Assembly (NCBI RefSeq): GCF_011758645.1
Contig: NZ_JAAMOZ010000001.1
Coordinates: forward strand, 310,001-374,000
Direction of reading: 5' to 3'
DNA length: 64,000 bases
Source of the DNA: Brooklawnia cerclae
GTDB lineage: Bacteria > Actinomycetota > Actinomycetes > Propionibacteriales > Propionibacteriaceae
Both the position numbers and the translations under genes were made by a program. Positions within the stretch are counted from its first letter, which is position 1. Each line of letters starts with the position of its first letter. The notes under the pieces were generated by a model that worked only from the letters and a program-made list of their open reading frames with translations, was not told the origin of the DNA and did no database searches. Shown here piece after piece: positions 5,901 through 26,323 of this stretch.

Positions 5901-5925
5901 GAAAGGGCCCTCCGGAGCCACGAAC

Positions 5926-6618
5926 TCAGAGGTCGCCATGCCAGCGGAACCAGCAGACGTCCAGCGGACGGTGGTCGTGCTGGTGACCCACGTGGCGCAC
6001 GAGGCAGCCGGGCTCCGACAGCTCGAAGGCCGTGAGGTCCGCCGGCGTCCCGGGGCGCCAGCCGAGCGCGAGCAACGAATCCAGCACGCGGTTGTCCCCG
6101 AGGATCCCCACGCGTTCGCGTTGATCGGGCCGCAGGTCCAACTCCTCGACGAGCAGCGGGCCGTCGACGCCGGAGGCGTCGAGCCTGGTCACCAACGACC
6201 CACCGCGCTGGCCTGAGCGTCCGAACACCAGGGTCTCGCGTTGCAGCAGCCGCGCGTCCGCACCGAGCGAGATGCGGGTGGTCCGTGTGACGTCGGCGCC
6301 GTCCGAGACGACGAAGGGCTGGGACTCCCATTCGAGCACAGCTCCGGCACCCAACTCGATGCTGACGTCCCACTGCGAGGAGCCCGGGCCCCCGTAGGCC
6401 ACGGTGCCGACCGGCTCGACGATCCGGAGCCGGCCTCCGGGCGCGACCACGACGTCGATGCCGACGCTGTCACCGGCCAGCAGCACCATACGGGTGCCGA
6501 CGATCGCGACCTCCGCGCCGTCGGGTGTCGTGGCGAGAATCCGGGGCGCCAGCACGTCTCCCCGGAGTTCGACCTGCGGCCGATCGGGGCCGGGGGTCAC
6601 CTGTATGCGCGTGCGCAC
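5926..6618 (-). CDS. ureD: Urease accessory protein UreD
   Basis: 230 residues. UreD (UreH) is the scaffold that binds apo-urease and recruits UreF and UreG for nickel insertion. Family signs are the GDVLAPRIL start region, the LLAGDSVGIDVVVAPGGRL strand pair split around GD, and the glycine-rich GPGSSQWDVSIELGAGA segment. It is somewhat shorter than the usual 260-280 residues. It is the last gene of the urease operon, starting with GTG 9 bp after ureG, and ends against the repeat tract. Confidence 0.92.
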   Translation of the reverse strand: MRTRIQVTPGPDRPQVELRGDVLAPRILATTPDGAEVAIVGTRMVLLAGDSVGIDVVVAPGGRLRIVEPVGTVAYGGPGSSQWDVSIELGAGAVLEWESQPFVVSDGADVTRTTRISLGADARLLQRETLVFGRSGQRGGSLVTRLDASGVDGPLLVEELDLRPDQRERVGILGDNRVLDSLLALGWRPGTPADLTAFELSEPGCLVRHVGHQHDHRPLDVCWFRWHGDL

Positions 6619-6627
6619 GTCCGAGGC

Positions 6628-7377
6628 TCAGTGCTGATGGGCGTGCTCGTGCCCGTGGGCATGCACGGTGCCGTCCGCATGGGTGTGGACCGTGCCGTCG
6701 GAATGCGAGTGCGGGGCCATCGGGCCCGGGTCCACCGGCACGTGACGGCCACTGCGGAAGCTCGCCAGGCAGTCACGCACCCACTGCTCCAGCGCGGTGA
6801 TGGACGAAGGATCCTTCCGCGAGACACCGAGCACGGGACGATCCCCGCGCACCTGGCGTCCCTCGGCGATCATCCGGTCGACGTCCACGTCCACGAACGG
6901 CCCGAGATCGGTCTTGTTGATGACGAGCAGGTCGGCCCGGGCGATGCCCGGCCCACCCTTGCGGACGACGTCGCCGCCGCCCGCGACGTCGAGGACGAAG
7001 ATCTGCACGTCGACCAGGGCGGGGGAGAAGGTCGCGGTGAGGTTGTCGCCCCCCGACTCGATCAGGACGATGTCCACGGGGGCGAAGTCGGCCTCCAGGT
7101 CCTCGGCGGCGAGCAGGTTCACCGTCACGTCGTCGCGGATCGCGGTGTGCGGGCAGGCGCCGGTCTCCACGGGCCGGATGCGCTCGGGATCGAGTACGCC
7201 GGCCGCCTTCAGGAAACGGGCATCCTCGTCGGTGTAGATGTCGTTGGTCACCACGGCGAGCGAGAGGGAACCGGCCAGTTGGCGGCAGATCGTCGCGATG
7301 AGCGAACTCTTGCCGGTGCCGACGGGGCCGGCCACCCCGAGACGCATCGCGCGGGCGGGTGCTGTTGGGTCAGGCAC
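6628..7377 (-). CDS. ureG: Urease accessory GTPase UreG with His-rich C-terminal tail
   Basis: A 249-residue SIMIBI-class GTPase that drives nickel delivery to urease. The P-loop [10 protein letters not shown] is near residue 15. The CPHTAIRDD motif (Cys-Pro-His, nickel/zinc ligands) and ESGGDNL are also present, as is the NKTDLGP base-specificity motif. UreG usually ends near residue 205. Here the last 35 residues carry repeated His ([19 protein letters not shown] then HEHAHQH), a likely nickel-binding extension. It overlaps ureF by 8 bp. No ureE is present in the window, so the tail may substitute for UreE metal binding. Confidence 0.95.
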
Positions 7378-8014
7378 GGAACAACCTTTCTGTCGTGTGG
7401 GCGTGACGCTCGGCCCACATCTCGATGTGCGGCGCGGCGTGGGCGGGGATCTGCTCCGGCTCCGTGAGGCCGGCCACGCGATCGGCCATGGCGACCACGT
7501 CCGGGATCAGGTCCCTGGTCAGCGCCGCCACCTGCACGGGATCGGTGGGCTCGAGCTTGAGGAGGGCGGAGGTCGCCGACTGCACGTCGTCATACCCGAC
7601 CAGGCAGGCGACCTCGTGGCCGGACAGTCCGGCGCGCGCGGCGGTCATGCCGAGGGCGACGGCACGGCAGTGCCGGGCCGGGCGCCGGTCGTCCGACGGC
7701 CACAGGGCAGCCAGGAGGCGACCGTGCCCGCGTCCGAGCTGCAGGGCGTTGTCACGCAGGACGCGGCTCGGGGTGCGGGCCGCCCAGGCACGTTCCACCC
7801 GGGCAAGATCGTCGCCCGCCAGCTCGGTCGCGCGGGCCACCACCGCGGTGGCGGCCTCGACCTCGGTGACCGTGCCGAGCCGGGTGCGCACGTACGAGGC
7901 GAGGTCGCTGATCGGCATCCCGGCCTGGAGAGCGGCCTCGAGCCCCGCCGACTGGGTGTGCGTGCCCACGGGCAGGCGCACGTCGGCGAGGAACGCCAGG
8001 AGCAACCCCGACAT
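7370..8014 (-). CDS. ureF: Urease accessory protein UreF
   Basis: A 214-residue all-helical UreF, which acts with UreD and gates the UreG GTPase. The N-terminal [25 protein letters not shown] corresponds, in two parts, to the family's LADSRLPxGxxxxSxGLE signature. ATG 8014 was selected because AAAGGAG precedes it by 6 nt; the reading frame stays open further upstream into ureC but without family similarity. It lies 23 bp after ureC and overlaps ureG. Confidence 0.93.
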
Positions 8015-8037
8015 CGTGGCTCCTTTCCGCCGGAAGA

Positions 8038-9738
8038 TCAGTACAGCGTGTACAGCTGAGCGGCCGGCAGCACCTCGGCCGGGGCCGGTTCGATCCGGAC
8101 GCCGTCGATGTCGATGGCGAAGGTCTCCGGGTCGATGTCGATCTTCGGCGTCGTCGCGTTGTTCTTCAAGTCCGCCTTCGTCACATCCCGGGTGCTCGCC
8201 ACGGGTAGCAGCTCCCGGCGCAGGCCGAGCCGGTCTGCCAGGCCGGCGTCCAGCGCGAACGGCGAGACGAACGAGACGGACAGGTCCGGCGCGGCCGGGG
8301 CGGCCAGCGTGGGCCGTTCCAGCGTCGGCTGCGGGGTGGTGATGGACGCGTTCGGGTCGCCCAGGCTGCCCCAGACCACGGCCCCGCCCTTGATCACCAT
8401 CTCGGGCCGCACGGCGAAGAAGCGCGGATCCCACAGCACGAGGTCGGCCATCTTGCCCGCCTCGACCGAGCCGATGTACGCGTCGACGCCATGCGCGATG
8501 GCCGGGTTGATCGTGTACTTGGCCACATATCGGCGGGCCCGCTCGTTGTCGGCGGGCAGGGAGCCGCCGAGCGAGCCCCGCCGGGCCTTCATCACGTGGG
8601 CGACCTGCCAGGTGCGGGTGATGACCTCACCGATCCGGCCCATGGCCTGGGCGTCCGACGAGGTGATCGACAGTGCACCCATGTCGTGCAGCACGTCCTC
8701 GGCCGCGATCGTGGTCGCGCGGATGCGGGACTCAGCGAACGCCAGGTCCTCGGGCACCTTCGGATTGAGGTGATGGCACACGAGCAGCATGTCGAGATGC
8801 TCGTCCACGGTGTTCCTCGTGTGCGGCAGCGTCGGGTTCGTCGACGCCGGTAGCACATAGGGCTCGCCGGCGAGCTTGAGGATGTCGGGGGCATGCCCGC
8901 CGCCTGCGCCCTCGGTGTGGAACGCGTGGATCGATCGTCCCGCGATCGCCCGGATCGTCGACTCGACGAACCCGGCCTCGTTGAGCGAGTCGGAGTGCAG
9001 GGCCACCTGCAGACCCCACTCGTCGGCGGCGCGCAGGGCGGCGTCCAGCGCGGCGGGGGTCGAGCCCCAGTCCTCGTGCACCTTGTAGCCGCCGGCCCCG
9101 GCGAGCGCCTGCTCGGCGAGCCCCTCGGCGCTCACGGTGTTGCCCTTGCCCAGCAGCAGGACGTTCACCGGGTACGGATCCATGGCCCGATGGATGAGCC
9201 GCAGGTGCCAGGGTCCTGGGGTGACGGTGGTCGCCTTCGTCCCCTCGGCGGGCCCCGTGCCGCCCCCACCGAGCGTCGTGATGCCGGTCGACAGCGCCTC
9301 CAGCGTCTGCGACGGCGAGATCATGTGCACGTGCGAGTCGAACCCGCCGGCCGTCAGGATCTTGCCCTCGCCGCTGATGATCTCGGTGGACGGCCCGATC
9401 TGCAGGTCGGGATGCGTGCCGTCGCTGATGTCGTGGTTGCCAGCCCGCCCCAGGGCCACGATCTTGCCGTTGCGGATGCCGACGTCGGCCTTGACGATGC
9501 CCCACCAGTCGAGGACGATCGCGTTGGTGATGACCGTGTCGGGGGCGCCCTGCGCGCTGGTGGTGCCGCCCTGGAGCATCGACTCGCGGATCGACTTGCC
9601 GCCGCCGAAGACCGCCTCGTCCCCGCCGACGGTCAGGTCCTGCTCCACCTCGATCCACAGGTCGGTGTCGGCCAGGCGCACCTGGTCGCCGGCCGTGGGT
9701 CCGTAGAGCGATGCGTACTTCTCGCGGGAGATCTCCAT
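8038..9738 (-). CDS. ureC: Urease subunit alpha
   Basis: The 566-residue nickel catalytic subunit, which hydrolyses urea to ammonia and carbamate. All active-site residues are visible: HVH at 136-138, the carbamylatable Lys 219 in YKVHEDWG, His 248 (ALHSDS), His 274 (AFHTEG), the flap Cys-His-His at 321-323, and Asp in SSDAQAMGR. Spacing matches the classical urease numbering with a constant offset of 2. The ATG at 9738 has AGGAGG upstream and begins the family sequence [13 protein letters not shown]; a longer start 11 codons earlier is rejected. It follows ureAB by 1 bp. Confidence 0.98.
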
Positions 9739-9739
9739 G

Positions 9740-10411
9740 TCAGCCCTCCTGGGACTCGTTGTCGGACACACCGATCGGGCCGAGTTCGCCGCCGTCGGTC
9801 TTGCCGAGTTGCAGCCCGGGGACGCGCCGCAGGCCGCGGATGGTGACCGCCTGGACCGTGCGCGACACGCCCGGCTCGAACCGGTGCGAGGTGCCGGCCG
9901 GAATGTCGAGGCGGAACCCTAACGCCTTGTCGCGGTCGAAGTCCAGGGCGGAGTTCGCGTCGGGCAGGTGCAGATGCGACCCGATCTGCACCGGCCGGTC
10001 ACCGGTGTTCGTGATGGTCAGCTCGATGCGTTCCTCCGGGCCCCGGTCGGCGTTGAGTTCCACCGTCCCCGGCCGGACGCGGATCGCGCCGGGTCCCTCG
10101 GCGGAGGAAGCTCCGATCGGGTGATGCAGGGTGACGAGTTTGCGTCCGTCGGGGAACATGGCCTCCACCTGCACGTCGGTGATGAGGTCGGGCACGCCGG
10201 GCATGACGTCGTCCGCGGTGAGCACCTCGCGACCCGAGCGCATGAGCTCGGCCACAGTGGCGCCCTCACGAGCCCGTTCGATGACCCAGGAGGTCAACAG
10301 CGCCACGGATTCGGGGTGATTGAGCTTGATCCCGCGCGCCTGCCGGTCGCGGGCGACCATGCCGGCCAGCGCCAGCATGAGTCTTTCCTGGTCGCCTGGG
10401 GTGAGATGCAT
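9740..10411 (-). CDS. ureAB: Fused urease gamma-beta subunit
   Basis: A 223-residue fusion. Residues 1-100 are the gamma subunit ([40 protein letters not shown], ending LVTLHHPI). Residues 105-223 are the beta subunit ([45 protein letters not shown]). The order equals that of Helicobacter UreA, whereas most actinobacterial ureases encode the two parts separately. It is preceded 9 bp upstream by the Nik-type ATPase gene and followed at once by ureC, placing nickel uptake and urease in one transcription unit. Confidence 0.96.
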
Positions 10412-10420
10412 TCGGCTCTC

Positions 10421-11992
10421 CTAACTGGTCAGTCCGCAGATCGAAGCGGTTGTGGTGTCGTCGGCCGGGCGCAGCCGGGGCCCGTCGGCCGTCGCGTCCA
10501 TGCGCCATCGGATGTCGGCGTACTCCTCGAGTGCCGGCAGATCGTGAGAGATCATGAGGACGCCGATCCCGCGCTCGTCGACGTGCCGGCGGATGTGCTC
10601 CATCACATCATCGGCCGTCCGGGCGTCCAGCATGGCGGTGATCTCGTCCAGCACGAGGTAGTCGGGCTGCAGGGCGAGCGCCCGGACGATGCACGCGCGC
10701 TGAAGCTCACCCCCCGACACCTGGTTGGGGCGGCGTCCCAGCAATTCGGGAGCGAGCCCGCACCACTCGGCGGCCTCGGCCGCGTCCACCTCGACGCCGG
10801 CGAGCCGTGCGGGCAGCTCGATCGCCCGGGCGAGGGTGAAGCGAGGGTCCACGGCGGTGAACGGCTGCTGCGGCACCCAGGCGACACGGCGTCGGGTGGC
10901 CTGTGGGAGGCCGACCCCAGCGGAGTGCAGAGGCTGACCGTCCAACTCCACGACACCGTCGTCGGGCTTCACCAGGAGGGCCATCATCGACGCCAGTGTG
11001 GACTTGCCCACGCCCGACGGCCCGGACAACCCGACGAGGGCGCCGCGCGGCACCTCCAGATCGACGCCCCGGACGATCTCCTGCCCGCCGAGGACGCGGG
11101 TCACCCCGCGCGCGACCAGGGACTCGTCCGGTCGGGGCACGACGGGCGGTCGGAGGTTCTGGTTGCCGGTGCGGGGGGCGATCAGCGCCTTCGGATCGCC
11201 CTGGGCCGTGATCACCCCGTCGGCGATGATCGACACGACGTCGCCGTAGACGCGTGCCAACTCGTTCTCGTGGGTGATGAGCAGCACCGCGTGGCCGCTG
11301 TGGGCGAAATTGGCCAGGGCGGCGACGACCGTCGCGGCCGAGTCCTGGTCGAGCCCGGACGTCGGCTCGTCGGCCAGGAGGATCGGGGGGTGGTTGAGCA
11401 TGGCGGCCACCATGCCCAGGCGGCTCAGCTGGCCGCCGGACAGCTCGTGCGGATAGCGGTCGAGCCACTCGAGTTCGGCACCGGCGGCCCAGCACAGCTC
11501 GCGGATCCGTTGCCGGTCGTCGTCGGCGGTCAGATGGGGGTGGACGGGCAGCAGCCCGCTGCGCGGCGAGACCACCCGCATCGCCTCCCGCAACTGCGTG
11601 CGGATCCTACTCGTGGCGGTGAACGCGGTGGCCGACCCTTGCGTGGCGGTGCCGATCAGACGACCGAGGACGCGGGAGCGGAACATCCGGGACGACAGGT
11701 GCATCAGGTCCCAGCGGCGGCCCGAGGCACTCAGCGCGACCTCACCGGCGGTGCGAGCGGACGGCGGCAGCATCCCGGTCAACGCGTTGACCAGGGTCGA
11801 CTTGCCGGCCCCGGACCTCCCCAGCAGTACATGCAACTCGCCGGGCCGGATGTCGAGGTCGATCCCGGCCAACGCCACCTGGTCGCCGTAGGACACCTGG
11901 AGGTCACGCACCGCTATGCCGGCCTGAGCGTGACCGTGCAGTGGCCTGGCCGGCGACCGCGCCGGGTCGTGTGGCGTCACAGGCTCAGGCAT
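10421..11992 (-). CDS. Nik/Opp-type ABC transporter, two fused ATPase domains
   Basis: 523 residues with two nucleotide-binding domains. The first has Walker A GRSGAGKST (58-66), signature LSGGQLSRLG and Walker B ILLADEPTSGLD. The second has GPSGVGKST, VSGGELQRAC and YLVLDEITAMLD. Single-chain fusions of the NikD- and NikE-like ATPases are common in actinobacteria. It energises the two permeases encoded just upstream. Direct linkage to ureAB supports nickel as the substrate, though dipeptide transporters share the same family. It overlaps the upstream permease by 8 bp. Confidence 0.85.
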   Translation of the reverse strand: MPEPVTPHDPARSPARPLHGHAQAGIAVRDLQVSYGDQVALAGIDLDIRPGELHVLLGRSGAGKSTLVNALTGMLPPSARTAGEVALSASGRRWDLMHLSSRMFRSRVLGRLIGTATQGSATAFTATSRIRTQLREAMRVVSPRSGLLPVHPHLTADDDRQRIRELCWAAGAELEWLDRYPHELSGGQLSRLGMVAAMLNHPPILLADEPTSGLDQDSAATVVAALANFAHSGHAVLLITHENELARVYGDVVSIIADGVITAQGDPKALIAPRTGNQNLRPPVVPRPDESLVARGVTRVLGGQEIVRGVDLEVPRGALVGLSGPSGVGKSTLASMMALLVKPDDGVVELDGQPLHSAGVGLPQATRRRVAWVPQQPFTAVDPRFTLARAIELPARLAGVEVDAAEAAEWCGLAPELLGRRPNQVSGGELQRACIVRALALQPDYLVLDEITAMLDARTADDVMEHIRRHVDERGIGVLMISHDLPALEEYADIRWRMDATADGPRLRPADDTTTASICGLTS

Positions 11993-12830
11993 GGTGCTCC
12001 TTGGGATTGATCAGCGTGGTGATCGTGATGGTGGTGATGATCAGCAGCAGCGCGGGGGCGGCCAGCGTCCACCAGTTGCCGGTGAGCAGCGCCTGCTGAC
12101 CGAGGTTGAGCAACGAGCCGAGCGACGGCTGATGCGGTGGCAGGCCCAGGCCGAGGAAGGTGAGCGTCGACTCGTGCCAGATGGCGTGGGGAATCAGCAG
12201 CCCGAAGGCCACCGCCACCTGGTTGGCCAGCCGTGGCAGCGCGTGATACCGCAGCAACTGGACACGGGTGAACCCCTGGGTGATCGCGACGCGGTAGTGG
12301 TCGCGGACGCCCACGGCGAGCAGCTCGGCGCGCGTCAGCCGCGCGGTCTGCGGCCAGTGGGTGAGGCCGACCACCATGATGATCGCGAGCAGCGAGCCGC
12401 GGAAGGTGGCGGCGATGACGATGCCGACCAGCAGATGTGGCAGTGAGTTGAAGCCGTCGACCACCCGCATGATCCATCGGTCGAACCGGCCGCCGACCAG
12501 CGCGCAGGTCGAGCCGACCAACGTCCCGATGACGATCGCGCCCAGGGCCCCCGCCAGGGCGACCAGTATCGAGATCCGCAGGCCGTAGGCGCACCGCACG
12601 AACAGGTCGCGGCCGGCGAGGTCGGTGCCGAACAGGTGCCCGAGGGACGGGGGCTGGGCGCCCACGCGGTACTCGACGTCGGTCAGCGGAACCGCGTTGA
12701 CCAGGGGGACGACGACCGCGTACGCCACCAGCGCCGCGAGCACCACACCGGCGACAGCGCGGGCCAGGGCCCCGCTGGGCAGCAGGTGCGCCAGGGAACG
12801 GCGGCGGGGAAGGACGACTTCACAGCTCAC
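11985..12830 (-). CDS. Nik/Dpp-type ABC transporter permease (NikC-like)
   Basis: A 281-residue inner-membrane permease of the BPD_transp_1 family with about six hydrophobic helices. The FGTDLAGRDLFVRCAYGLR segment and the EAA-type loop near VAITQGFTRVQLLRYHALPRL are characteristic of DppC/NikC subunits. It overlaps the NikB-like gene by 11 bp and the ATPase by 8 bp. Tight coupling with the urease genes suggests the second importer serves nickel. Confidence 0.85.
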   Translation of the reverse strand: MSCEVVLPRRRSLAHLLPSGALARAVAGVVLAALVAYAVVVPLVNAVPLTDVEYRVGAQPPSLGHLFGTDLAGRDLFVRCAYGLRISILVALAGALGAIVIGTLVGSTCALVGGRFDRWIMRVVDGFNSLPHLLVGIVIAATFRGSLLAIIMVVGLTHWPQTARLTRAELLAVGVRDHYRVAITQGFTRVQLLRYHALPRLANQVAVAFGLLIPHAIWHESTLTFLGLGLPPHQPSLGSLLNLGQQALLTGNWWTLAAPALLLIITTITITTLINPKEHHA

Positions 12831-13851
12831 GGGGATCAGTCCTCGGATCGAGCAGGGCGAGGGCGACGTCCGACATGATGCCGCCCACCAGGGCGATGGC
12901 CGCCAGAAGCATGGAGACGACGCCCAGCAGGGGGAAGTCCTGGGCCAGAGCGGCGTTCACCAGCGACTGCCCCAGCCCGGGCCACGAGAAGATCTGTTCG
13001 ACCAGCACCGACCCCGCGATCACCTCCGTCAGCCGTGCGCCGGTGATGGCGAGCACGGGGATCATCGCCCCGGGCAGGATGTGCCGCCCGAGTACGCGCC
13101 ATTCGGGGACGCCGCGCAGGCGCGCCGCCCGCACCCCGGGGTCGCCGGAGGTCTCGATGAGCGCCTTGCGCAGGTGCAGCGTGATCCACGGCAACTGCCC
13201 GACGGCCACGGCACCGGCGGGCAGCACCATGTGGCGCACGAGCTCGGTTGCCGTGGCGGGCATGCCGGGGGTCGAGGTGCCGCCGGACGGCAGCAGGCGC
13301 AGGCCGAGGGCGAAGACGGCGACGAGCGTGAGGCCGACCAGGAACGGCGGGACGGCCGCGATCACCCACATCACCCGGTCGAGCACCTGCGAGACCAGCC
13401 CATGGGGTCGCCGCGCCGCCATCATGGCCAGCGGGATCGAGATCGCGAAGCCGAGCGCCAGGCCGGTGATCATGAGCAGCACCGTCCACGGCAGTCGCGC
13501 GGACACCACGTCGGCCACGGGCATGCGTGCCGACATCGAGTAGCCGGGGTCACCGGTGAGGATGCCCCCGATCCACTGGAGCCAGGCCTGCCACCAGGGA
13601 AGCTGGGTGACGGCCTGCTCCACGTTCGCCCGGCCGCCTGCACTGACGAACTCGTCCCGGGAGCCGAGGAAGGCTGCCGTCGCGTCCACCGGTGACAGCT
13701 CGGCCAGAGCGAAGACCAGCAGGCTGAGGGCCGCCAGCAGCGGGATCAGCCAACCGAGCCGCCGGACCACGAGCCAGCCGATCGCGGACGCCCGGCCGCG
13801 ACGGCCCGTTCGCCCGCTCCGGCCACCCACGACGATGGATGTCGCGCTCAT
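12820..13851 (-). CDS. Nik/Dpp-type ABC transporter permease (NikB-like)
   Basis: A 343-residue permease. An N-terminal helix (WLIPLLAALSLLVFALAEL) precedes a periplasmic loop and five further helices, with the DppB-type EAA loop around GVPEWRVLGRHILPGAM. The ATG at 13851 was chosen because it forms a 4-bp ATGA overlap with the end of the binding-protein gene; a start 11 codons earlier lies inside that gene. It pairs with the NikC-like permease. Confidence 0.85.
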   Translation of the reverse strand: MSATSIVVGGRSGRTGRRGRASAIGWLVVRRLGWLIPLLAALSLLVFALAELSPVDATAAFLGSRDEFVSAGGRANVEQAVTQLPWWQAWLQWIGGILTGDPGYSMSARMPVADVVSARLPWTVLLMITGLALGFAISIPLAMMAARRPHGLVSQVLDRVMWVIAAVPPFLVGLTLVAVFALGLRLLPSGGTSTPGMPATATELVRHMVLPAGAVAVGQLPWITLHLRKALIETSGDPGVRAARLRGVPEWRVLGRHILPGAMIPVLAITGARLTEVIAGSVLVEQIFSWPGLGQSLVNAALAQDFPLLGVVSMLLAAIALVGGIMSDVALALLDPRTDPREL

Positions 13852-15443: not shown

Positions 15444-15479
15444 CTTTCCTGTTCTTGGCGAATGCGTGTGCGGCGCGTT

Positions 15480-16478: not shown

Positions 16479-16481
16479 GGT

Positions 16482-17357
16482 TCACCTCGAGGCTGCGAAT
16501 CGATTGCGGATGGCGTCGCCGGCCAGGTTGGAGATCAGACTCAGGAGCATGACGACCATGCCGTAGGTGAGCGGGATCCACCAGGCGTTCAGGATCTCTG
16601 TGAGGCTGCTCGACGTGTCGGAGCCGAGTTCGGGCGCTGGGGCCGGCTGGCCGAGCCCGAGGAAGGACAGGCTCGACAGGACGAGCACCACGTTGCCGAT
16701 GTCGAGGCTCGCGCTGATGATCGCGGTCGGGACCGTGCCGGGCAGCAGGTGGCGCCACATGATGCGGAACCAGCCGACCCCCGCCAACCGGGCCGCCTCG
16801 ACGTGGGGCCGGGTCGCCAGGGCCCGGGTCTCGCCGCGGATGATGCGTGCGTAGTAGGGCCACCACACGATGCTCACGGCGATGAAGGTGTTGACCAGAC
16901 CGGGGCCGAGGGCGGCCGCCACCGCGACGGCGACGAGCATCGAGGGCAGGGCGAGGAAGACCTCGGTGAAACGCATCAGCACGGTGTCGACCCAACCGCC
17001 GAACATGCCGGCGATCAGCCCGATGATCGTGCCGATGACCAGGCCGGTGCCCGTGACGACGATGGACATCAGCCAGCTGGTGCGCAGGCCGAGGAGCACG
17101 CGCGAGGCCACGTCGCGTCCGATCGAGTCGGTGCCCAGCAGATGGCCGGGTGACAAGGGGGTGAGTTTCGGTGTGCCCGTGGGTTGCACGGGATCGTAGG
17201 GGACCAGGAGCGGGGCCAGCAGGCCGATCAGCGTGACGGCGAGCAGGATGCCGATGAAGACGTAGTCGACGGCGGCGCTGCGGCTGGTGCGGGTGGGACG
17301 ACGGCGGGCCAGAAGCCGCCAACGGGGCTGGACGCTGGTCGCTGTGAGGGCGGTCAT
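16482..17357 (-). CDS. Dpp-type ABC transporter permease (DppC-like), first importer
   Basis: A 291-residue permease. A basic cytosolic N-terminus (RRRPTRTSR) precedes the first helix, then HLLGTDSIGRDVASRVLLG and the EAA loop AARLAGVGWFRIMWRHLLPG mark the DppC class. The ATG at 17,357 overlaps the stop of the upstream ATPase gene by one base (TGATG), indicating coupling. An in-frame extension to 17,462 is antisense-like sequence inside the ATPase and is rejected. Confidence 0.85.
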   Translation of the reverse strand: MTALTATSVQPRWRLLARRRPTRTSRSAAVDYVFIGILLAVTLIGLLAPLLVPYDPVQPTGTPKLTPLSPGHLLGTDSIGRDVASRVLLGLRTSWLMSIVVTGTGLVIGTIIGLIAGMFGGWVDTVLMRFTEVFLALPSMLVAVAVAAALGPGLVNTFIAVSIVWWPYYARIIRGETRALATRPHVEAARLAGVGWFRIMWRHLLPGTVPTAIISASLDIGNVVLVLSSLSFLGLGQPAPAPELGSDTSSSLTEILNAWWIPLTYGMVVMLLSLISNLAGDAIRNRFAASR

Positions 17358-19378: not shown

Positions 19379-20820
19379 CGTGATGCTCCTTGCTCTCGTG
19401 CGGTTCTGGTCCAGTCCGGTTGGGGTTCGGGGTCGGTGAGGCCTGCGACCTCGCAGGCCAGTGGGGTGACGATCGGCTCGTCGTCCTCCGCGGAATCCTC
19501 GACGGGCATGACGTCGTCCTCGGCGGGGTCGCCGTCCTGGGGGAGGGGCGTGGGCTCGTCGTCCTCCGCGAGGCTCGCGACCCGCTGGTTGCGGGCGCCG
19601 GAGGTCAGGGTGAGGATCACCGCGACGACCAGGCAGACCCCGGCCGCGATGATCCACAGCCCGCGGGCACCCAGGTGGTCGAGGGCGAAGCCGCCCACCA
19701 CCGGGCCGACGACGGTGGCCAGGTTGAAGTTCAGGGAGTACACGCCCTGGTACCGGCCGCGTAGCTCGCGTCGTGCCAGGTCAGCCGAGATCGACTGCGC
19801 CTGGGCGTGGGAACCGAGCTCGCCCAGCGTCCAGATGGCGACGGTCAGGAAGTAGACGGTCATCGACCCCGCGACCGACTGCAGACCGACCCCGACGGCG
19901 GTCAGGGCGATGGCGGCGGCGGTCACGCGTTCCCGCGACCAGCGCCCCAGGATCCGGGCGCTGGGAATCTGCAGCAGACACAGCAGCAGCCCGTTGAGGG
20001 TGAGCAGATGGCCGTAGCTGGAGCTGGCGAAGCCCTGCGCGGTCATGATCAGGGGCAGCGACGTGGTCGACTGGTTGTAGACGACGGAGTAGAGGAACAT
20101 CACGAGCGTGAACGTCACGAAGACGCGGTCGCGGAGCACTGCGGTGATCCCCTTGCCCGCGCGAAGCGGGGGAGCGGACACGTCCTCCAACGAGGAGGAC
20201 AGCGGCCCCACGTCCGAGGATCCTTCGGTGATCGAGGTCCGGGTCTCCGGCACGCGGAGCAGGACGATGACCAGGGAGGCCACCAACAGCAGCGCCTGGC
20301 CGTAGAACAGGAGCGAGAAGTTGCTGTCGGCGAGGTACCCGGCCAGCATCGGGCCGACCGCCCATCCCAGGTTGATCGCCCAGTAGTTGTAGTTGTACGC
20401 GGTGCGCCGGTGGGCTGCGGGCACGATGTCGCCGATCATCGTGATGATGACCGGCCCCGCCGCACCGTTGAAAAGGCCGTAGACGAACAGGAACGCGGCC
20501 GTCACCAGGGAGCCCTGCACCGAGGGGATCGCCACGAGCACGGCCACCGACAGGATGAGGCTCCATGCCAGGACCGTCTTGCGTCCGAGCCGATCGGCCA
20601 GGATGCCGCCGACGAGTGACGAGAGCACCACCCCGATGCCGTAGGTGGAGACGACCACGCCGGCCTCGCCCGCGGTCAGCCCGACGTGTTTGGTCAGGAA
20701 GATCGTCATGAACGGCACGACGAAGCGGCCGATCCAGGTGACGAGTTCGGCGGCCCAGAGCCACCAGAACGAGGCTGGCAGATCGGACATCCGGGTGTGG
20801 CGTGCGGGTGTGGCGGTCAT
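19375..20820 (-). CDS. Major facilitator superfamily transporter
   Basis: 481 residues with about 12 hydrophobic helices. The MFS motif A appears as GGILADRLGRKTVL after helix 2, and again in weaker form in the second half. The C-terminal 60 residues are cytosolic and very acidic (EDDEPTPLPQDGDPAEDD). The drug/efflux-type subfamily is the closest by eye. The gene sits between the binding-protein gene and the ATPase gene of an ABC importer, with a 4-bp overlap to the latter. It could export an inhibitory amine by-product or import a substrate; direction cannot be read. ATG 20,820 follows AAGGGAG. Confidence 0.8.
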   Translation of the reverse strand: MTATPARHTRMSDLPASFWWLWAAELVTWIGRFVVPFMTIFLTKHVGLTAGEAGVVVSTYGIGVVLSSLVGGILADRLGRKTVLAWSLILSVAVLVAIPSVQGSLVTAAFLFVYGLFNGAAGPVIITMIGDIVPAAHRRTAYNYNYWAINLGWAVGPMLAGYLADSNFSLLFYGQALLLVASLVIVLLRVPETRTSITEGSSDVGPLSSSLEDVSAPPLRAGKGITAVLRDRVFVTFTLVMFLYSVVYNQSTTSLPLIMTAQGFASSSYGHLLTLNGLLLCLLQIPSARILGRWSRERVTAAAIALTAVGVGLQSVAGSMTVYFLTVAIWTLGELGSHAQAQSISADLARRELRGRYQGVYSLNFNLATVVGPVVGGFALDHLGARGLWIIAAGVCLVVAVILTLTSGARNQRVASLAEDDEPTPLPQDGDPAEDDVMPVEDSAEDDEPIVTPLACEVAGLTDPEPQPDWTRTAREQGASR

Positions 20821-20884
20821 GTATCTCCCTTGCGGGTGACGGGCACCAGGCCCGCCACCCGCGGTCGCGGTTCGTGCGTCTTTG

Positions 20885-22495
20885 TCAGGCGATGGACAAC
20901 TTGTTGAAGTCGAGGGTGTACGGCGCCGCGATGTTGTGCGCATCCTCGACCCCGGCCAGCCAGGGCTGAGCGACCATGAAGTCGCTGATCCAGGCGAAGG
21001 TCGGGTTGCACATGTGCTCGTAGGCGGCGTCACCGGCCTGCGCGTAGGTCTCGGCGTCGCCGGTGCGCAGGGCCTCGGTCAGCAGCGAGGTGACGTCCTC
21101 GGAGGAGCACTGCAGGTAGTTCAGGCCGCCGTCGGCGTCCCAGAACACGTGCCCGTGCATGTAGGCGTTGTTCGAGTCGGGCCAGGTGCCCGGCGAGACG
21201 AAGACGTCGGGCGCGTTGGCCGGGTCGCTGGCGAAGCTGCCGTAGATCTCGGAGGTCTGGTGTGAGGCCGCGGTCGCGTTCATGCCGAGGGCCTGGAGCT
21301 GTGCCGCGATGAGGTTGCTCATCTGCTCCGCGTCGGACGAACCGGCCGTGTAGCCGATGTCGATCGCGGTGCCGGCCGGCAGCGAGGAGACCCACTCCTG
21401 CAGGGCGTCCGGGTCATAGACCAGTTCCCGGCTGTCCACGTCGGCCGGGAGCGCGCCCTCGGGGTAGTTGCCCTCGGACGGCTTGCCGCTGTACATCACC
21501 GTCTGGTCGATGAGAGTCGCCCAGTCGATGCCCTCGAACAGCGCCTTGCGGGCCGACTCGTCGGCCAGCAACTCACGGTTGGGGTTCATGTAGAACACGC
21601 CGACCTGGAAGGAGGGCAGGGTGTAGGCGCTCAGCGCGTCGCTGTTGACGTAGCCCTCACGGGACGCGTTGGGGATCTGGCCCAGCATGGCGTGCAGGTC
21701 GCCCTTCTCGAGCGCCAACTGCATGGCCGACACCTCGGTGTAGACCGGCATGTCGATCGTGGTGAACGTCGGCTCCTCGTCGCCCCAGTAGCCGTCGTAC
21801 GCCTGGAGTTCGTAGCCGGAGTCGACCTCGGCCTTGGTCAGGGTGTAGGGGCCGGTGCCGCCGTCGTGTGTGGACAGGTAGGTCTGGGCGTAGTCGTCGC
21901 CTGCCTGCTCGGAAAGGATGGTGGGGCTGATCATGCGCAGGCCGTAGGGGGAGGCGAGGTAGTCGAGGAAGGCGGAATTCGGGGCAGACAGCGTGATCGT
22001 CACGGTGTAGTCGTCGATCGTGTCGACCTGGGCGACGTCGGAGACCATGTAGGCGGGGCCGCCGTCGACGTCGAGGCGCCGCTGGATGGAGGCCTCGACG
22101 GCGTCGGCGGTGAACGGCGTGCCGTCGTGGAAGGTCACTCCTTCGCGCAGGTGGAAGGTGTACTGGCTGTTGTCGTCCGACACCTCCCACGACTCGGCGA
22201 GCAGCGGGACGATCTCCGCCTCGGTGGAGTTGCCCGCCTCGTAGCGCACCAGGCCCTCGTAGACGTTGGTGGTGATGGCCAGGCCGGCACCGGCGTAGTA
22301 GATGTCGGGGTCCGGCGGCTGACCGGGGTCGTTGAGGAAGCCGAGCCTCAGCACGCCGTCGGTCGGTGCCTGTGAGGTCGAGGCGTCGTCGCCCCCGCCG
22401 CTGCAGCCGGTGACGGCCACCGCGAGTGCGGCGAGGAGTGCCGCGGCGCGCATGCGGAACCTGCGACGCGGCCTGGATGGGTTGTCGGGTGTCAT
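20885..22495 (-). CDS. Dpp-type solute-binding lipoprotein (SBP family 5), first importer
   Basis: 536 residues with an Arg-rich n-region and a lipobox AVTGC (Cys 31), so it is lipid-anchored outside the membrane. SBP_bac_5 landmarks include VTFHDGTPFTADAVEASIQ, GGTGPYTLTKAEVDSGYE and ESARKALFEGIDW. It lies 34 bp downstream of the first arginase-family gene and starts the transporter part of the cluster. Position next to the hydrolases suggests that it captures the guanidino substrate, but the family mostly binds peptides, nickel complexes or opines. Confidence 0.82.
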   Translation of the reverse strand: MTPDNPSRPRRRFRMRAAALLAALAVAVTGCSGGGDDASTSQAPTDGVLRLGFLNDPGQPPDPDIYYAGAGLAITTNVYEGLVRYEAGNSTEAEIVPLLAESWEVSDDNSQYTFHLREGVTFHDGTPFTADAVEASIQRRLDVDGGPAYMVSDVAQVDTIDDYTVTITLSAPNSAFLDYLASPYGLRMISPTILSEQAGDDYAQTYLSTHDGGTGPYTLTKAEVDSGYELQAYDGYWGDEEPTFTTIDMPVYTEVSAMQLALEKGDLHAMLGQIPNASREGYVNSDALSAYTLPSFQVGVFYMNPNRELLADESARKALFEGIDWATLIDQTVMYSGKPSEGNYPEGALPADVDSRELVYDPDALQEWVSSLPAGTAIDIGYTAGSSDAEQMSNLIAAQLQALGMNATAASHQTSEIYGSFASDPANAPDVFVSPGTWPDSNNAYMHGHVFWDADGGLNYLQCSSEDVTSLLTEALRTGDAETYAQAGDAAYEHMCNPTFAWISDFMVAQPWLAGVEDAHNIAAPYTLDFNKLSIA

Positions 22496-22529
22496 ATCTG
22501 TTCAGCCCCTTCGGGTCGTGTTTTCTGAG

Positions 22530-23750
22530 CTACTTCTCGTCGCGGAAGATCTGGTTGCGGGGGTTGCCCTGGCTGTCGAGCCCCTGGCCCAGGGCGTAGG
22601 GATGCGCGTAGTGGGGGTCGGTGAGCCCCTGGCGGCGCATGGCGATCCCGGTGAGGGTCTCGCGGATGGCGCGGTTGGCCAGCAGCGAGGTGATCTGCCC
22701 GCGGTCGTCGTAGGGGGGTGAGACCTCGACGACGTCCATGGCGACGATGCCGACCTCGGCCGCCAGTCGCCTCACTGCGGTGAGGACGTTGATGCTGGTC
22801 AGGCCGCCGGGCTCCGGGGTGCCGGTGCCGGGAGCGAACGCGGGATCGGTGACGTCGACGTCGAGCGAGACGTAGAGGTGATCGGCCTGGTCGAGGGCCT
22901 GATCGACGGCGCGTTGGAGCACCTTGTCGAACCCGTCGTGGATGATCTCGGCCATGAAGTGGGTGCGCATCTGCTGCTCATCCATCCAGTCCAGGGTCTC
23001 CTGCTCCGGCCAGTAGCCGCGCAGGCCGACCTGGACGAAGTTCTTGCCGGGGACCGCGCCGGATTCGATGAGCTTGCGCATCGGGGTGCCGTGGGACGCC
23101 AGCGACCCCGGCATGTCCGCACCGGTGTCGGCGTGGGCGTCGAAGTGGACGATGCCGACCTTGCCGTAGCCGTAGTGGTCGGCGACGGCGGTGGCGCAGG
23201 GCCAGGTGATGGCGTGGTCGCCACCCATGATGATCGGGATCGTGTCCGACTCGACGATGGTGCCGATGAACTTGCGGATGCCCTCGAAGGTGGCCGGGGT
23301 GTTGCCGACCTTGATCGGCGCGTCCCCGTAGTCGCAGACGTTGAGCTCTTCCAACGCGTCGACGTGGGTCTCCAGCTCGAAGTGCGGTCGTCCGTATCCG
23401 CCCTTGTAGTCGCACATGCGGATCGCGAGCGGGCCGTGGTTGGTGCCGGTGCGGCCCGTGGCGGTGGAGTCCCAGGGGACGCCGCAGATGGCGACGTCCA
23501 TCTCGCCGGCGACGAGGTCCTCGGGGGTCAGGCAGACCGGCAGTTTCGCGAAGGTCTGGATGCCGGAGAAGCCTCCCTCAGCGCGGCGGTTGACGAAGAT
23601 CGGCCCGGGTTTGCGTCCCTGATTGAAGTCGTCGACCGCGCCGTGGCCTTCCAGGCCGGTGCCCAGCCGCGGCGGCTGCTCCCAGAATCCGTCGGGCCAG
23701 AGTTCGTGGGTGTGGTGGTCGTGATCGTGATCGTGTGTGTGTTCCGACAT
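22530..23750 (-). CDS. Arginase-family hydrolase, guanidine hydrolase-like, His-rich N-terminus (paralogue 1)
   Basis: A 406-residue ureohydrolase. The binuclear metal ligands are intact: GGDH (His 179), DAHAD (204, 206, 208) and SLDVDVTDP (Asp 297, Asp 299), plus VVEVSPPYD. Agmatinases are about 300 residues. This protein has roughly 80 extra N-terminal residues, opening with HTHDHDHDHHTH and then ELWPDGFWEQPPRLG. Length and extension resemble the nickel-dependent guanidine hydrolase GdmH of cyanobacteria, which makes urea and ammonia. A tandem pair also recalls two-subunit metformin hydrolase. Linkage to nickel uptake and urease supports nickel use. Substrate assignment is inference. Confidence 0.8.
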   Translation of the reverse strand: MSEHTHDHDHDHHTHELWPDGFWEQPPRLGTGLEGHGAVDDFNQGRKPGPIFVNRRAEGGFSGIQTFAKLPVCLTPEDLVAGEMDVAICGVPWDSTATGRTGTNHGPLAIRMCDYKGGYGRPHFELETHVDALEELNVCDYGDAPIKVGNTPATFEGIRKFIGTIVESDTIPIIMGGDHAITWPCATAVADHYGYGKVGIVHFDAHADTGADMPGSLASHGTPMRKLIESGAVPGKNFVQVGLRGYWPEQETLDWMDEQQMRTHFMAEIIHDGFDKVLQRAVDQALDQADHLYVSLDVDVTDPAFAPGTGTPEPGGLTSINVLTAVRRLAAEVGIVAMDVVEVSPPYDDRGQITSLLANRAIRETLTGIAMRRQGLTDPHYAHPYALGQGLDSQGNPRNQIFRDEK

Positions 23751-23793
23751 CGTGGTGTGCAGACCTTTCGAATGCGTGAGTGTGCAGAAGTCG

Positions 23794-25014
23794 TCAGTTG
23801 GCCGGGGGTTCGGTGCCCGGTTCGGTCCACAGCGAGCGGGGATCGGCGTACCTGGGGGTGATCAGGCCGCGCCGGCGCATCGCGATTCCGGTGAGCGCCT
23901 CGCGGATGGCGCGGTTGGCCAGCAGGACGGTGATCTGACCCTGGTTGTCGTAAGGGGGCGAGACCTCGACGACGTCCATGGCGACGATGCCGACCTCGGC
24001 CGCCAGTCGCCTCACCGCGGTGAGGACGTCGATGCTGGTCAGGCCACCTGCCACCGGGGTGCCGGTGCCGGGAGCGTAACCGGGGTCGGTGACGTCGATG
24101 TCGAGTGAGAGGTAGAGGCGGTCGGCCCCGTCGAGGGCCTCGTCGATCGCCCGGTCGAGCACTTTGTCGAACCCGTCGTGGATGATCTCGGCCATGAAGT
24201 GGGTGCGCATCTGCTGGGTGTCCATCCAGTTGAGCAACTCCTGGTCGGGCCAGTAGCCGCGCAGGCCGACCTGGACGAAGTTCTTGCCGGGCACCGCACC
24301 GGATTCGATGAGCTTGCGCATCGGGGTGCCGTGGGAGGCCAGCGAGCCGTGCATGTCGTCACCGGTGTCGGCGTGGGCGTCGAAGTGGACGATGCCGACC
24401 TTGCCGTAGCCGTAGTGGTCGGCGACGGCGGTGGCGCAGGGCCAGGTGATGGCGTGGTCGCCGCCCATGATGATCGGGATGGCATCGGATTCGACGATGG
24501 TGCCGACGAACTTGCGGATGCCCTCGAAGGTGGCCGGGGTGTTGCCGACCTTGATCGGGGAATCGCCGTAGTCGCAGACGTTCAGATCGGCCAGCGCGTC
24601 GACGCGCACGTCGAGGTGCGAGTGGGGGAACCCGTACCCGCCGACGTAGTCGCACATGCGGATCGCGAGCGGGCCGTGGTTGGTGCCGCTTCGTCCACCA
24701 GCTGTGGAGTCCCACGGGACGCCGCAGATGGCGACGTCCATCTCGCCGGCGACGAGGTCCTCGGGGGTCAGGCAGACCGGGAGCTTGGCGAAGGTCTGGA
24801 TGCCGGAGAAGCCTCCCTCAGCGCGGCGGTTGACATAGATCGGGCCGGGTTTGCGGTCCTTGTTGAAGTCGTCGACCGCGCCGTGGCCCTCGAGGCCTTT
24901 GCCCAACCGGGGAGGCTGCACCCAGAAGCCCTCCGGCCACAGCTCGTGGTGGTGACCGTGATCGTGCTCGTGGTCATGTTCGTGCTCGTGCGGCTCGGGA
25001 GTGTTTTCGGCCAT
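23794..25014 (-). CDS. Arginase-family hydrolase, guanidine hydrolase-like, His-rich N-terminus (paralogue 2)
   Basis: 406 residues, closely similar to the downstream paralogue over most of its length, so the pair arose by recent duplication. The N-terminus is even richer in His (HEHEHDHEHDHGHHHEL). Metal ligands are intact (GGDH near 184-187, DAHAD near 212-216, SLDIDVTDP near 303-311), so both copies should be catalytic. It differs in substrate-loop positions, for example FPHSHLDVRV against RPHFELETHV. It is the first structural gene of the cluster, about 60 nt downstream of a predicted promoter. An AAGGA ribosome site precedes the ATG. The copies may form a hetero-oligomer or differ in substrate. 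Confidence 0.8.
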   Translation of the reverse strand: MAENTPEPHEHEHDHEHDHGHHHELWPEGFWVQPPRLGKGLEGHGAVDDFNKDRKPGPIYVNRRAEGGFSGIQTFAKLPVCLTPEDLVAGEMDVAICGVPWDSTAGGRSGTNHGPLAIRMCDYVGGYGFPHSHLDVRVDALADLNVCDYGDSPIKVGNTPATFEGIRKFVGTIVESDAIPIIMGGDHAITWPCATAVADHYGYGKVGIVHFDAHADTGDDMHGSLASHGTPMRKLIESGAVPGKNFVQVGLRGYWPDQELLNWMDTQQMRTHFMAEIIHDGFDKVLDRAIDEALDGADRLYLSLDIDVTDPGYAPGTGTPVAGGLTSIDVLTAVRRLAAEVGIVAMDVVEVSPPYDNQGQITVLLANRAIREALTGIAMRRRGLITPRYADPRSLWTEPGTEPPAN

Positions 25015-25081
25015 GTACGTCCTTGCTCTAGATGTGCCATCGAGGTGTCTCGGTCGGTGGCGATGTCACAACGTCGAAGCG

Positions 25082-25132
25082 AACGTAGGTTCTGCCGAAT
25101 CGTTTCGTCAATATAGTTTCAACGTTAGAAAC
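25082..25132 (-). promoter_or_regulatory. Candidate promoter with LacI-type operators for the hydrolase-urease cluster
   Basis: Reading the minus strand, TTGACG (25,111-25,106) and TACGTT (25,087-25,082) form a -35/-10 pair with an 18-bp spacer, about 70 bp before the first hydrolase start. Within the spacer lies CGAAACGATTCG (25,107-25,096), an imperfect palindrome with the central CG typical of LacI-family operators. A second near-palindrome, GTTTC-N7-GAAAC (25,116-25,132), sits just upstream. The LacI gene lies 253 bp upstream of the first hydrolase start. Binding is inferred. Confidence 0.5.
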
Positions 25133-25267
25133 AAGGTCTTTACACAGCGGTTACATGGGGGGTCGATTTGCCCGCCAGTGGCGGACGACAGGTCGGCCGT
25201 CTGTGCCGTTCCTGTGAACGCCCACGTCAGACGGGTGTTGCTGCCTCAGGACGGGGACACTCGGCGC

Positions 25268-26323
25268 CTACGGCCGGACGATCGCGGAGCCCGCCGTGGT
25301 CCTTCCGCTAGTCGAAGCCCGGAAACTGACGTGTGCCGGCACCGTGCGCAGTGCCCCGGGTGCGTTCGCGGCCTCGGCGGGGTCGTCCAGCATCTCGAAC
25401 AGCCACCTGGCGCAGGCCGCGCCCAGCGAGCGTGCCGGCAGATCCACCGCGGTCACCGCCGGCTCCGCCTGGAGCAGGGAGGGATCGTCCGAACAACAGG
25501 CGACGAGCACGTCGCGCCCGGGGACGCGTCCCTGATCGGCGACGGCGCGCAACGCGCCACGTGCGGCCGCGGTCGAGGCTGTCAGGATGAAGTCGATCCC
25601 GGGACGCGCCCTCAGTTCGGTGGTGACCCACGACCGGAAGGCCTCGGGGTCGCGGTCGGCGAAGCGCACCTCCCGGAGGCTGCCCACCAGGCCGTTGTGC
25701 GCGCACCAGTCGTCGAAGACACGCCGCAGCTCGTCGCCCCAGCCACTGTTGCGGTCGGGGCTGATGATGAGCGGCTCGTGCACCCCCTGCTCGATCACCG
25801 TGGCGAGGATCGTCTCCACCGCCCCGCGATGGTCGGCGGCGACCACGGCGCATTTCGGCATCCCCTCGGGCAGATGCTCGCCGGCCACCACGGGCAGGTC
25901 GTACGTCATGAGTTCGCGGGCCCGGGTGTCGTCCCCGATGGGGTCGATGATGATGATCCCGTCGACGCGGGGTGCGGTGCGCCTGGGCTCGACCCAGTTG
26001 CTGGACAGCACTGTCAGGTCGTAGTCGTGATGCTGCGCGATGGCGATCGCGCCGGCGAGGAAGTCGCGGAAGTACGGGGTCGACAAGGCCGTCACCGCAT
26101 TCTGATGATGGACGCCGATGGCGTTGGTGCGCCCTGTCCGCAGCCCCTTTCCCAGCGCGCTGGCGACATAGCCCAACTCCGTGGCCGTCTCGGCCACCCG
26201 GTCGCGGGTCTGCTTGGTCATGCGCCCGCGCCCGGCGAGGGCGTCCGACGCGGTGCCGATGGAGACGCCTGCCGCTTTGGCGACGTCCTTCAAGGTGACC
26301 CTGCCGGGCCGCTTGTCGGCCAT
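25268..26323 (-). CDS. LacI-family transcriptional regulator
   Basis: 351 residues. The N-terminal helix-turn-helix reads VTLKDVAKAAGVSIGTASDAL, followed by the hinge region ATELGYVASALGKGLRTGR. A periplasmic-binding-protein-like sensor domain follows (FRDFLAGAIAIAQHHDYDL onward). ATG 26,323 begins the conserved N-terminus; the frame is open further upstream without similarity. The gene is transcribed in the same direction as the hydrolase-urease cluster and lies 253 bp before it, so it is the obvious local regulator. The effector may be the guanidino substrate or a product; this is inference. Confidence 0.9.
   Translation of the reverse strand: MADKRPGRVTLKDVAKAAGVSIGTASDALAGRGRMTKQTRDRVAETATELGYVASALGKGLRTGRTNAIGVHHQNAVTALSTPYFRDFLAGAIAIAQHHDYDLTVLSSNWVEPRRTAPRVDGIIIIDPIGDDTRARELMTYDLPVVAGEHLPEGMPKCAVVAADHRGAVETILATVIEQGVHEPLIISPDRNSGWGDELRRVFDDWCAHNGLVGSLREVRFADRDPEAFRSWVTTELRARPGIDFILTASTAAARGALRAVADQGRVPGRDVLVACCSDDPSLLQAEPAVTAVDLPARSLGAACARWLFEMLDDPAEAANAPGALRTVPAHVSFRASTSGRTTAGSAIVRP

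Follow-up and report, generated by a model that had tools for sequence, protein, structure and literature searches.

The association of ureohydrolase genes with nickel and urease genes is a known theme. Tandem ureohydrolase genes of Aminobacter are reported together with hypAB, hupE, urea-transport genes, and urease (PMC11399263). The urease is encoded downstream of the cluster for the hydrolase DmgH, whose products are urea and an amine (PMC11399263 and PMC11271267), and the clustering was taken to support dimethylguanidine as the substrate (PMC11399263). The operons for the guanidinase GdmH in Synechocystis and Nitrospira inopinata likewise combine an arginase-family hydrolase with an importer and pass urea to urease, and the Synechocystis operon includes nickel chaperones (PMC11410670 and PMC12186494). 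Here we compare these systems with a 17-gene cluster in Brooklawnia cerclae (Propionibacteriaceae). The cluster lies within a 64-kb stretch of the 3.79-Mb genome (NZ_JAAMOZ010000001.1, positions 310,001–374,000; hereafter the window) and encodes a LacI-family repressor, two arginase-family hydrolases named GzhA and GzhB, two importers, a major facilitator superfamily (MFS) transporter, and urease.

A survey of arginase pairs reports 56 of them, 10 in Actinomycetota, and leaves some pairs in which both members are intact unexplained, as an open question (PMC11271267). The genes gzhA and gzhB may be among these 56. For nickel uptake, the NikZYXWV importer has an Opp-type layout and a NikZ-like binding protein with two His residues near the C terminus (PMC5140060 and PMC12086673), and C. 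carboxidivorans NikZ-II, with its "HH-prong," is described in work cited by PMC12086673. An earlier note on this DNA, made from the sequence, knew of no description of all these parts in one operon. Given the Aminobacter cluster (PMC11399263), to call such a combination undescribed is too strong. No publication on the present cluster appeared among the matches listed (titles and abstract starts of open-licence PMC papers). What the present cluster adds is an enzyme clade that keeps both active sites intact in all six aligned pairs, together with its importers, LacI control, and assembly from two modules.

Gene content and predicted function of the cluster

We read the cluster as a two-module nitrogen-scavenging unit under one LacI-repressed promoter that takes a guanidino compound to urea and then to ammonia and imports nickel, and we give this reading a probability of about two in three. 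Importer 1 would take up the guanidino compound, which would be hydrolyzed to urea and an amine by GzhA and GzhB, acting separately or together in a mixed hexamer. The NikZ-like importer 2 would take up nickel for urease and probably for the hydrolases, whose His-rich N-termini would hold the metal. UreD, UreF, and UreG would insert nickel into urease, which would convert urea to ammonia and CO2, and repression would be relieved when the guanidino compound or its product binds LacI. The sequence itself shows which genes are present and in what order, how far they are conserved, the operator-like site, the intact active sites, and the NikZ-like binding protein; for the substrate, nickel in the hydrolases, the inducer, the fate of the amine, and the role of the MFS protein, as for co-transcription, we rely on inference.

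Pfam and coordinate checks confirmed every gene named in the earlier note and placed the 17 genes on the minus strand, from the lacI ATG at 26323 to the ureD stop at 5926. The matches comprise a LacI helix-turn-helix (beginning just past the ATG), two Arginase (PF00491), two SBP_bac_5, four BPD_transp_1, and one MFS domain, two proteins with paired ABC_tran domains, a fused Urease_gamma and Urease_beta protein, and UreC, UreF, UreG, and UreD. Neither importer lacks a part: each has a binding protein, a B-type and a C-type permease, and two fused ATPases, and mfs sits between sbp1 and the importer 1 ATPase gene. Across the whole genome, a search at an E value of 0.001 gave two PF00491 matches and a single ureC, and all three belong to the cluster.

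The close packing described earlier, with gaps of a few bases and overlaps of 1–11 bp, holds for 10 of the 16 junctions, which range from an 11-nucleotide (nt) overlap to a 9-nt gap. It does not hold for the 253-nt lacI–gzhA junction or for five gaps of 43, 34, 64, 36 (perm1B–sbp2), and 23 nt. Within 5500–25400, promoter scanning found no sigma70-like site on either strand and terminator scanning found no terminator-like site on the minus strand; the plus strand gave four terminator-like matches, where shuffled sequence averaged 3.9 over the two strands together.

A clade of paired hydrolases with intact active sites

GzhA and GzhB are 87% identical over 372 residues and belong to the ureohydrolase (arginase) family by their PF00491 domains and six Asp/His metal ligands. 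These ligands (H187, D212, H214, D216, D305, and D307 in GzhA numbering) and the catalytic His228 are intact in both copies and complete in the 14 aligned rows of the clade, one of them partial. Both active sites are intact in all six aligned pairs, in which A and B copies are 78%–85% identical. The cluster resembles that of Aminobacter DmgH and MefH (MetCaCb) in having two adjacent arginase-family genes and urease. It differs in that the Aminobacter beta subunit has lost metal ligands and is ~33% identical to alpha, whereas no subunit with a degenerate metal site occurs in the six pairs; in that neither hypAB nor hupE is among the 17 genes; and in that a Dpp-type ABC importer, an MFS transporter, and LacI stand where Aminobacter has an NCS1-type importer and AcrR/MerR regulators (PMC11399263 and PMC11271267). 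The DmgH/MefH type of enzyme is an alpha2-beta4 hexamer that requires both subunits.

The nearest solved structures by score are the guanidinases 7esr and 9fek, followed by GbuA and GpuA and then by agmatinases and PAH, and core identity to each of the five solved enzymes compared is 34%–38%. GbuA, GpuA, and PAH (3nio, 3nip, and 1gq6) share with the pair a fold family, the metal ligands, and a Thr at the guanidinase Trp position (Thr319 in GzhA), at the same 34%–38% core identity. Four residues mark the guanidinase GdmH, namely Thr105, His222, Trp313, and Glu344 in N. inopinata numbering (PMC11410670). Mapped from printed alignments with a two-residue offset, these positions read Gly/His/Thr/Glu in the A copy and Thr/His/Thr/Glu in the B copy. 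The tree places the clade outside the GdmH branch and joins it to an actinobacterial agmatinase-like group that is ~50% identical (46%–52%), although with only two GdmH sequences and long branches the deep placement is unsure. Because the marker Trp is Thr and the clade is separate, GzhA and GzhB are not canonical guanidinases, and in the strict sense the earlier description of them as guanidine-hydrolase-like is not supported, with the His and Glu markers present in both, Thr in B only, and Trp in neither. The GdmH operons differ further in having a single guanidinase gene, a guanidine-I riboswitch, and a urease encoded elsewhere in the genome (PMC11410670 and PMC12186494).

His-rich N-termini characterize the clade. 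GzhA has 9 His in its first 28 residues, and all 14 members read (one from a partial gene) have 6–10 His in the 16–51 residues before the first conserved motif; three sister-clade proteins have no His in their first 30 residues. GzhA and GzhB belong to a small family of predicted function and are probably nickel enzymes.

The 87% identity hints at a recent duplication, but diagnostic residues and nucleotide identity speak otherwise. GzhA keeps 8 of 15 A-diagnostic residues, with 4 of B type and 3 other, GzhB has 12 of 15 B-type residues, with 2 of A type and 1 other, and identity between the two genes varies from 77% to 100% in patches. Older paralogues with partial gene conversion would fit better. 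In the tree, however, window A groups with window B (87/97, not starred), and the two copies of the Propionibacteriaceae metagenome-assembled genome (MAG) Md513_bin89 group with each other (100/100). Since these groupings speak against a single old duplication, we can only infer gene conversion.

Distribution of the cluster and its two modules

One genome for each of 84,980 species was scanned with two peptide patterns, which yielded eight loci: in the MAG, Cellulomonas timonensis, Krasilnikoviella flava, C. avistercoris, C. aerilata, Cellulosimicrobium composti, Saccharopolyspora soli, and Nesterenkonia pannonica. This number is a lower bound because a further carrier from the C. timonensis family (G616) was not among them. 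Counting the window, there are ten carriers. Within the order, 2 of 245 genomes carry the clade (the window genome and the MAG; 32 others have only the 46%–51% group), as do 4 of 121 in the C. timonensis family (one, G616, newly found); among 8 genomes of the genus and among 396 of the phylum, the window's own was the only one. A plasmid search with gzhB gave no record of at least 60% identity. The cluster is a real, conserved but rare unit.

Two modules can be distinguished. Module 1 consists of lacI, gzhA, gzhB, sbp1, mfs, the fused ATPase gene, and two permease genes; module 2 consists of the NikZ-like importer and urease. Module 1 without lacI is present in all carriers as far as the contigs reach, with mfs in all eight other carriers whose contigs extend that far (the C. 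avistercoris contig stops after sbp1). lacI adjoins the hydrolase genes in seven of the nine other carriers (C. timonensis, K. flava, C. avistercoris, C. composti, S. soli, G616, and, divergently, C. aerilata) and lies upstream of an extra mfs gene in N. pannonica. In the MAG, sbp1 lies between the two hydrolase genes, and in S. soli the hydrolase pieces are at two contig ends. The single hydrolase gene of N. pannonica, like several of its genes for transporters and urease, matches in broken frames in the record. C. aerilata has only one hydrolase of the clade; a third arginase-family gene (L042:18555-19430), ~35% identical, is located there between perm1B and sbp2.

Both modules occur in the window's order in C. 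timonensis and G616, where ureA and ureB matched as separate pieces and where the lacI and ureD of G616 are only partly inside the stretch. Because gene order recurs in these two genomes, the arrangement is not due to chance. Six carriers (the window, C. timonensis, G616, K. flava, C. composti, and C. aerilata) have importer 2 after module 1, whereas the fetched stretches of the MAG, S. soli (1.7 kb to the contig end), and N. pannonica show none. In three of the six, namely the window, C. timonensis, and G616, urease comes immediately next; in C. aerilata it lies upstream, beside the divergent lacI. All ten carrier genomes have ureC, compared with a background of 28 of 147 genomes in the window's family (two carriers included) and 33 of 121 in the C. 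timonensis family. In the latter, urease is present in 4 of 4 carriers versus 29 of 117 others (Fisher 0.005).

Module 2 is found without such hydrolases in three of seven genus mates, or three of the four that have urease (G227, G258, and G275). Here importer 2 and urease are in the window's order with 61%–93% identity, side by side in two genomes and 2.4 kb apart in G258; the fourth (G264) has a more distant urease and lacks importer 2. No match to gzhB was found in any of the seven at E 1e-40. The window's sbp2, perm2B, and perm2C are 67%–81% identical to those of the three genus mates versus 56%–64% to those of C. timonensis, and the corresponding values for UreC are 89%–93% and 79%. Module 1 (LacI aside) has 52%–86% identity to the five named non-MAG carriers compared. 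As module 2 is nearer to the genus mates than to C. timonensis, it looks inherited within the genus, and module 1 looks to have been brought in, or kept where others lost it.

Across eight Propionibacteriaceae urease regions, importer 2 is present in three and absent from four, and one (G110) has a distant relative on the other strand with 31%–37% identity. A candidate urea transporter beside the MAG module was rejected because these neighbors score best as branched-chain amino-acid (Liv) parts, below cut-off; they adjoin a hydroxyproline dehydratase. No family recurs among nine flanking proteins scanned in the relatives; a tenth is the extra arginase-family gene of C. aerilata.

Importers and urease

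The nearest solved relative of Sbp1 is 1dpe, a dipeptide-binding protein. Those of Sbp2 are 8efz (2.3e-61) and 4oet (1.4e-46), which we take to be nickel-binding NikZ proteins, 8efz being C. carboxidivorans NikZ-II and 4oet C. jejuni NikZ. Sbp2 carries HEHG at 515–518, and His495, His515, and His517 are retained in all 20 other rows reaching those columns (two rows are one protein). These relatives, the conserved C-terminal HxH, and the presence of the same importer before urease in the three hydrolase-free genus mates support the nickel import proposed earlier and make importer 2 a probable nickel importer. It differs from NikZYXWV in its fused ATPases and in having HxH rather than the HH of two printed alignments, and its nickel role is a prediction.

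The urease set comprises fused ureAB, ureC, ureF, ureG, and ureD, so that UreABC and UreDFG are all represented, with no UreE among the 17 cluster genes. Six UreC motifs (at 145, 228, 257, 284, 331, and 371 of the longer frame) presumably hold the urease metal ligands and the flap Cys and His, and UreG ends in a His-rich tail. The pathway logic of the earlier note, from guanidino compound through urea to ammonia, is supported. A match to RF02514 (5' ureB small RNA; 54.8 bits) at 9298–9591, on the strand opposite ureC, may reflect only conserved urease coding sequence.

A single predicted LacI-type operator

An 18-bp CG-centered palindrome, TGACGAAACGATTCGGCA, lies between lacI and gzhA at the promoter-like sequence beside lacI, the layout expected of a LacI-controlled operon. 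Using a symmetric matrix built from seven relatives' sites, with the window's site left out, this operator-like site scores 25.9 bits; the runner-up within the 64 kb reaches 6.8, and none of 20 random 64-kb sequences exceeds 16.5. A looser pattern has a single match in the whole genome, upstream of gzhA. The cluster looks like one regulated unit, as the window has no second strong site and the genome no second match to the pattern. By the matrix, neither importer 2 nor urease is preceded by an operator in the window or C. timonensis, and the three genus-mate nickel-urease regions have none (best 8.3–10.1).

G616, which was not in the matrix, has operator-like sites of 27.5 and 22.9. Two sites spaced 103–104 bp apart occur in C. 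timonensis, K. flava, C. avistercoris, C. composti, and G616 (second sites 17.5–24.4), a distance that would be compatible with DNA looping. Only one strong site is seen in the window, C. aerilata, and S. soli. In seven relatives, though not in N. pannonica, TACGTTC or a variant differing at one base begins 5–6 bases past the operator. Three operator-like sites in N. pannonica (L045:7450-9988) are upstream of lacI, the extra mfs gene, and the hydrolase. Riboswitch control was considered and rejected, as neither a guanidine nor a nickel-cobalt family reached gathering score anywhere in the window; a search of 24900–26500 at E up to 1 gave no guanidine riboswitch and only a sub-threshold porB match.

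Features of the cluster and neighboring genes

Table 1. Cluster genes and putative control sites in the window, listed from lacI to ureD
Feature	Position	Strand	Basis
lacI: LacI-family repressor	25268..26323	-	PF00356 + Peripla_BP_3
LacI-type operator TGACGAAACGATTCGGCA upstream of gzhA	25093..25110		matrix score 25.9 bits
promoter-like TTGACG-18-TACGTT, overlaps operator	25082..25111	-	by eye; weak consensus match
gzhA: arginase-family hydrolase, A-type, His-rich N-terminus	23794..25014	-	PF00491 8.8e-81
gzhB: arginase-family hydrolase, B-type, His-rich N-terminus	22530..23750	-	PF00491 6.4e-84
sbp1: importer 1 solute-binding protein, Dpp-like	20885..22495	-	PF00496; lipoprotein signal apparent by eye
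mfs: MFS transporter	19375..20820	-	PF07690
importer 1 fused DppD-DppF-type ATPase	17357..19378	-	two ABC_tran + two oligo_HPY
importer 1 permease, C-type	16482..17357	-	BPD_transp_1
perm1B: importer 1 permease, B-type	15480..16478	-	BPD_transp_1 + BPD_transp_1_N
sbp2: NikZ-like solute-binding protein, probable nickel importer	13848..15443	-	nearest solved 8efz, 4oet
perm2B: importer 2 permease, B-type	12820..13851	-	BPD_transp_1
perm2C: importer 2 permease, C-type	11985..12830	-	BPD_transp_1
nbd2: importer 2 fused ATPase pair	10421..11992	-	two ABC_tran
ureAB: fused urease gamma + beta subunits	9740..10411	-	PF00547 + PF00699
ureC: urease alpha subunit	8038..9738	-	NF009685 above cut-off
ureF	7370..8014	-	PF01730
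ureG, His-rich C-terminus	6628..7377	-	TIGR00101 above cut-off
ureD	5926..6618	-	PF01774

Housekeeping genes flank the cluster, with purC, purS, and a glutamine amidotransferase gene on one side and pdxT and pdxS on the other. The latter two (27503–30707) lie beside a divergent GntR-aminotransferase gene, which we take to be the usual regulator layout for pyridoxal phosphate synthesis. Opposite lacI is a long plus-strand frame (25001–27412) whose end (residues 738–792) weakly matches REase_MTES_1575/DUF559; it is perhaps a real gene near 27.2–27.4 kb lengthened by chance. A microcompartment-type diol dehydratase cluster at 30678–42791 encodes the dehydratase large subunit, a reactivase, a phosphate propanoyltransferase, two bacterial microcompartment (BMC) shell proteins, an aldehyde dehydrogenase, and a cobalamin adenosyltransferase fused to an HbpS-like domain. 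A transposase-like protein with an integrase core (rve) and a weak IS481 leucine-zipper match is encoded at 45324–46352.

Discussion

Several observations weigh against a single guanidino-to-ammonia unit supplied with nickel. The guanidinase Trp is replaced by Thr in all 14 aligned clade rows, so simple guanidine is not a predicted substrate and nickel use cannot be transferred from GdmH. hypA and hypB are absent from the 17 cluster genes, a search that did not extend to the rest of the genome. Only 4 of 10 carriers have urease adjoining module 1. Of the other six, N. pannonica has it ~19 kb away on the opposite strand, and the remaining five (K. flava, C. composti, the MAG, C. avistercoris, and S. 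soli) have it on a different contig; in the last two, the contig with module 1 breaks off. The urease co-occurrence counts ignore relatedness. As for nickel, NCBIfam models for NikA, NikB, and NikC are below cut-off for both importers, and NikD and NikE for importer 2, while NikD passes (354 vs 318.7) on the importer 1 ATPase. Importer 2 is also not tied to urease everywhere: distant Sbp2 homologues (39%–48%) in 16 other genomes stand apart, with no urease or hydrolase match within the fetched 4.7–19 kb. Finally, the promoter hexamers TTGACG and TACGTT match the consensus weakly and were missed by a stricter scan, and the MAG stretch has no operator (best 7.4) and no lacI in view.

Other substrates for the hydrolases were weighed against this background. 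It is possible, though on balance unlikely, that they act on a longer guanidino acid or amine of the 4-guanidinobutyrate or agmatine type with Mn or Zn, leaving the cluster's nickel for urease alone. Their nearest clade is the agmatinase-like group, whose neighbors, taken over three loci together, include an aminotransferase, aldehyde dehydrogenases, and a pyridoxal phosphate-dependent decarboxylase; Met221 aligns with the guanidinobutyrase Met, and Thr319 is the residue of GbuA, GpuA, and PAH. However, no aldehyde dehydrogenase, aminotransferase, or amine oxidase is among the 17 genes, the three agmatinase-like proteins lack the His-rich N-termini, and position 221 is Glu in the sister clade and, within the clade itself, Ser in two B copies (C. 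composti and the MAG). That the pair are guanidine hydrolases proper, of the GdmH type, seems improbable. The top structural scores and the His and Glu markers, with Thr in B, would agree with such enzymes, but the Trp-to-Thr change throughout the clade, its separate position in the tree, and the lack of a guanidine riboswitch in the scans above argue otherwise.

The joining of the modules and the role of importer 1 can also be explained differently. Chance adjacency with separate expression would fit the occurrence of each module without the other and the 36-nt gap at their junction. We think it improbable as well, since the window shares this junction with C. timonensis and G616, K. flava and C. 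composti have importer 2 after module 1 even though their urease is elsewhere, and the window has a single operator and no internal minus-strand terminator-like site. Importer 1 could instead form a metallophore system with the MFS protein or be the nickel importer itself: SBP_bac_5 importers can carry metal chelates, the staphylopine system has an MFS exporter beside an SBP_bac_5-type importer, and it is the importer 1 ATPase that passes the NikD cut-off. This is very doubtful, given that no metallophore synthesis gene is among the 17, that Sbp1 is nearest to a dipeptide-binding protein, and that importer 1 accompanies the hydrolases in every carrier with a long enough contig while importer 2 goes with urease in the genus mates.

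The nitrogen-scavenging unit remains our preferred reading. A more far-reaching proposal, which we regard as speculative and rather unlikely, is that GzhA and GzhB represent a third kind of ureohydrolase pair. In such a pair, two old paralogues, each catalytically intact, would assemble into a mixed hexamer that holds nickel and acts on a natural guanidino compound still lacking an assigned enzyme. The His-rich N-termini would replace HypAB, and the whole route, from uptake of compound and metal to ammonia, would lie in one LacI regulon.

The cluster gives a context to an arginase-gene pair with both members intact, in which a guanidino compound and nickel probably enter the cell and urea and then ammonia are produced. 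The ligand of LacI should be the substrate or a product. The cluster also shows the joining of a substrate module and a nickel-urease module into one unit.

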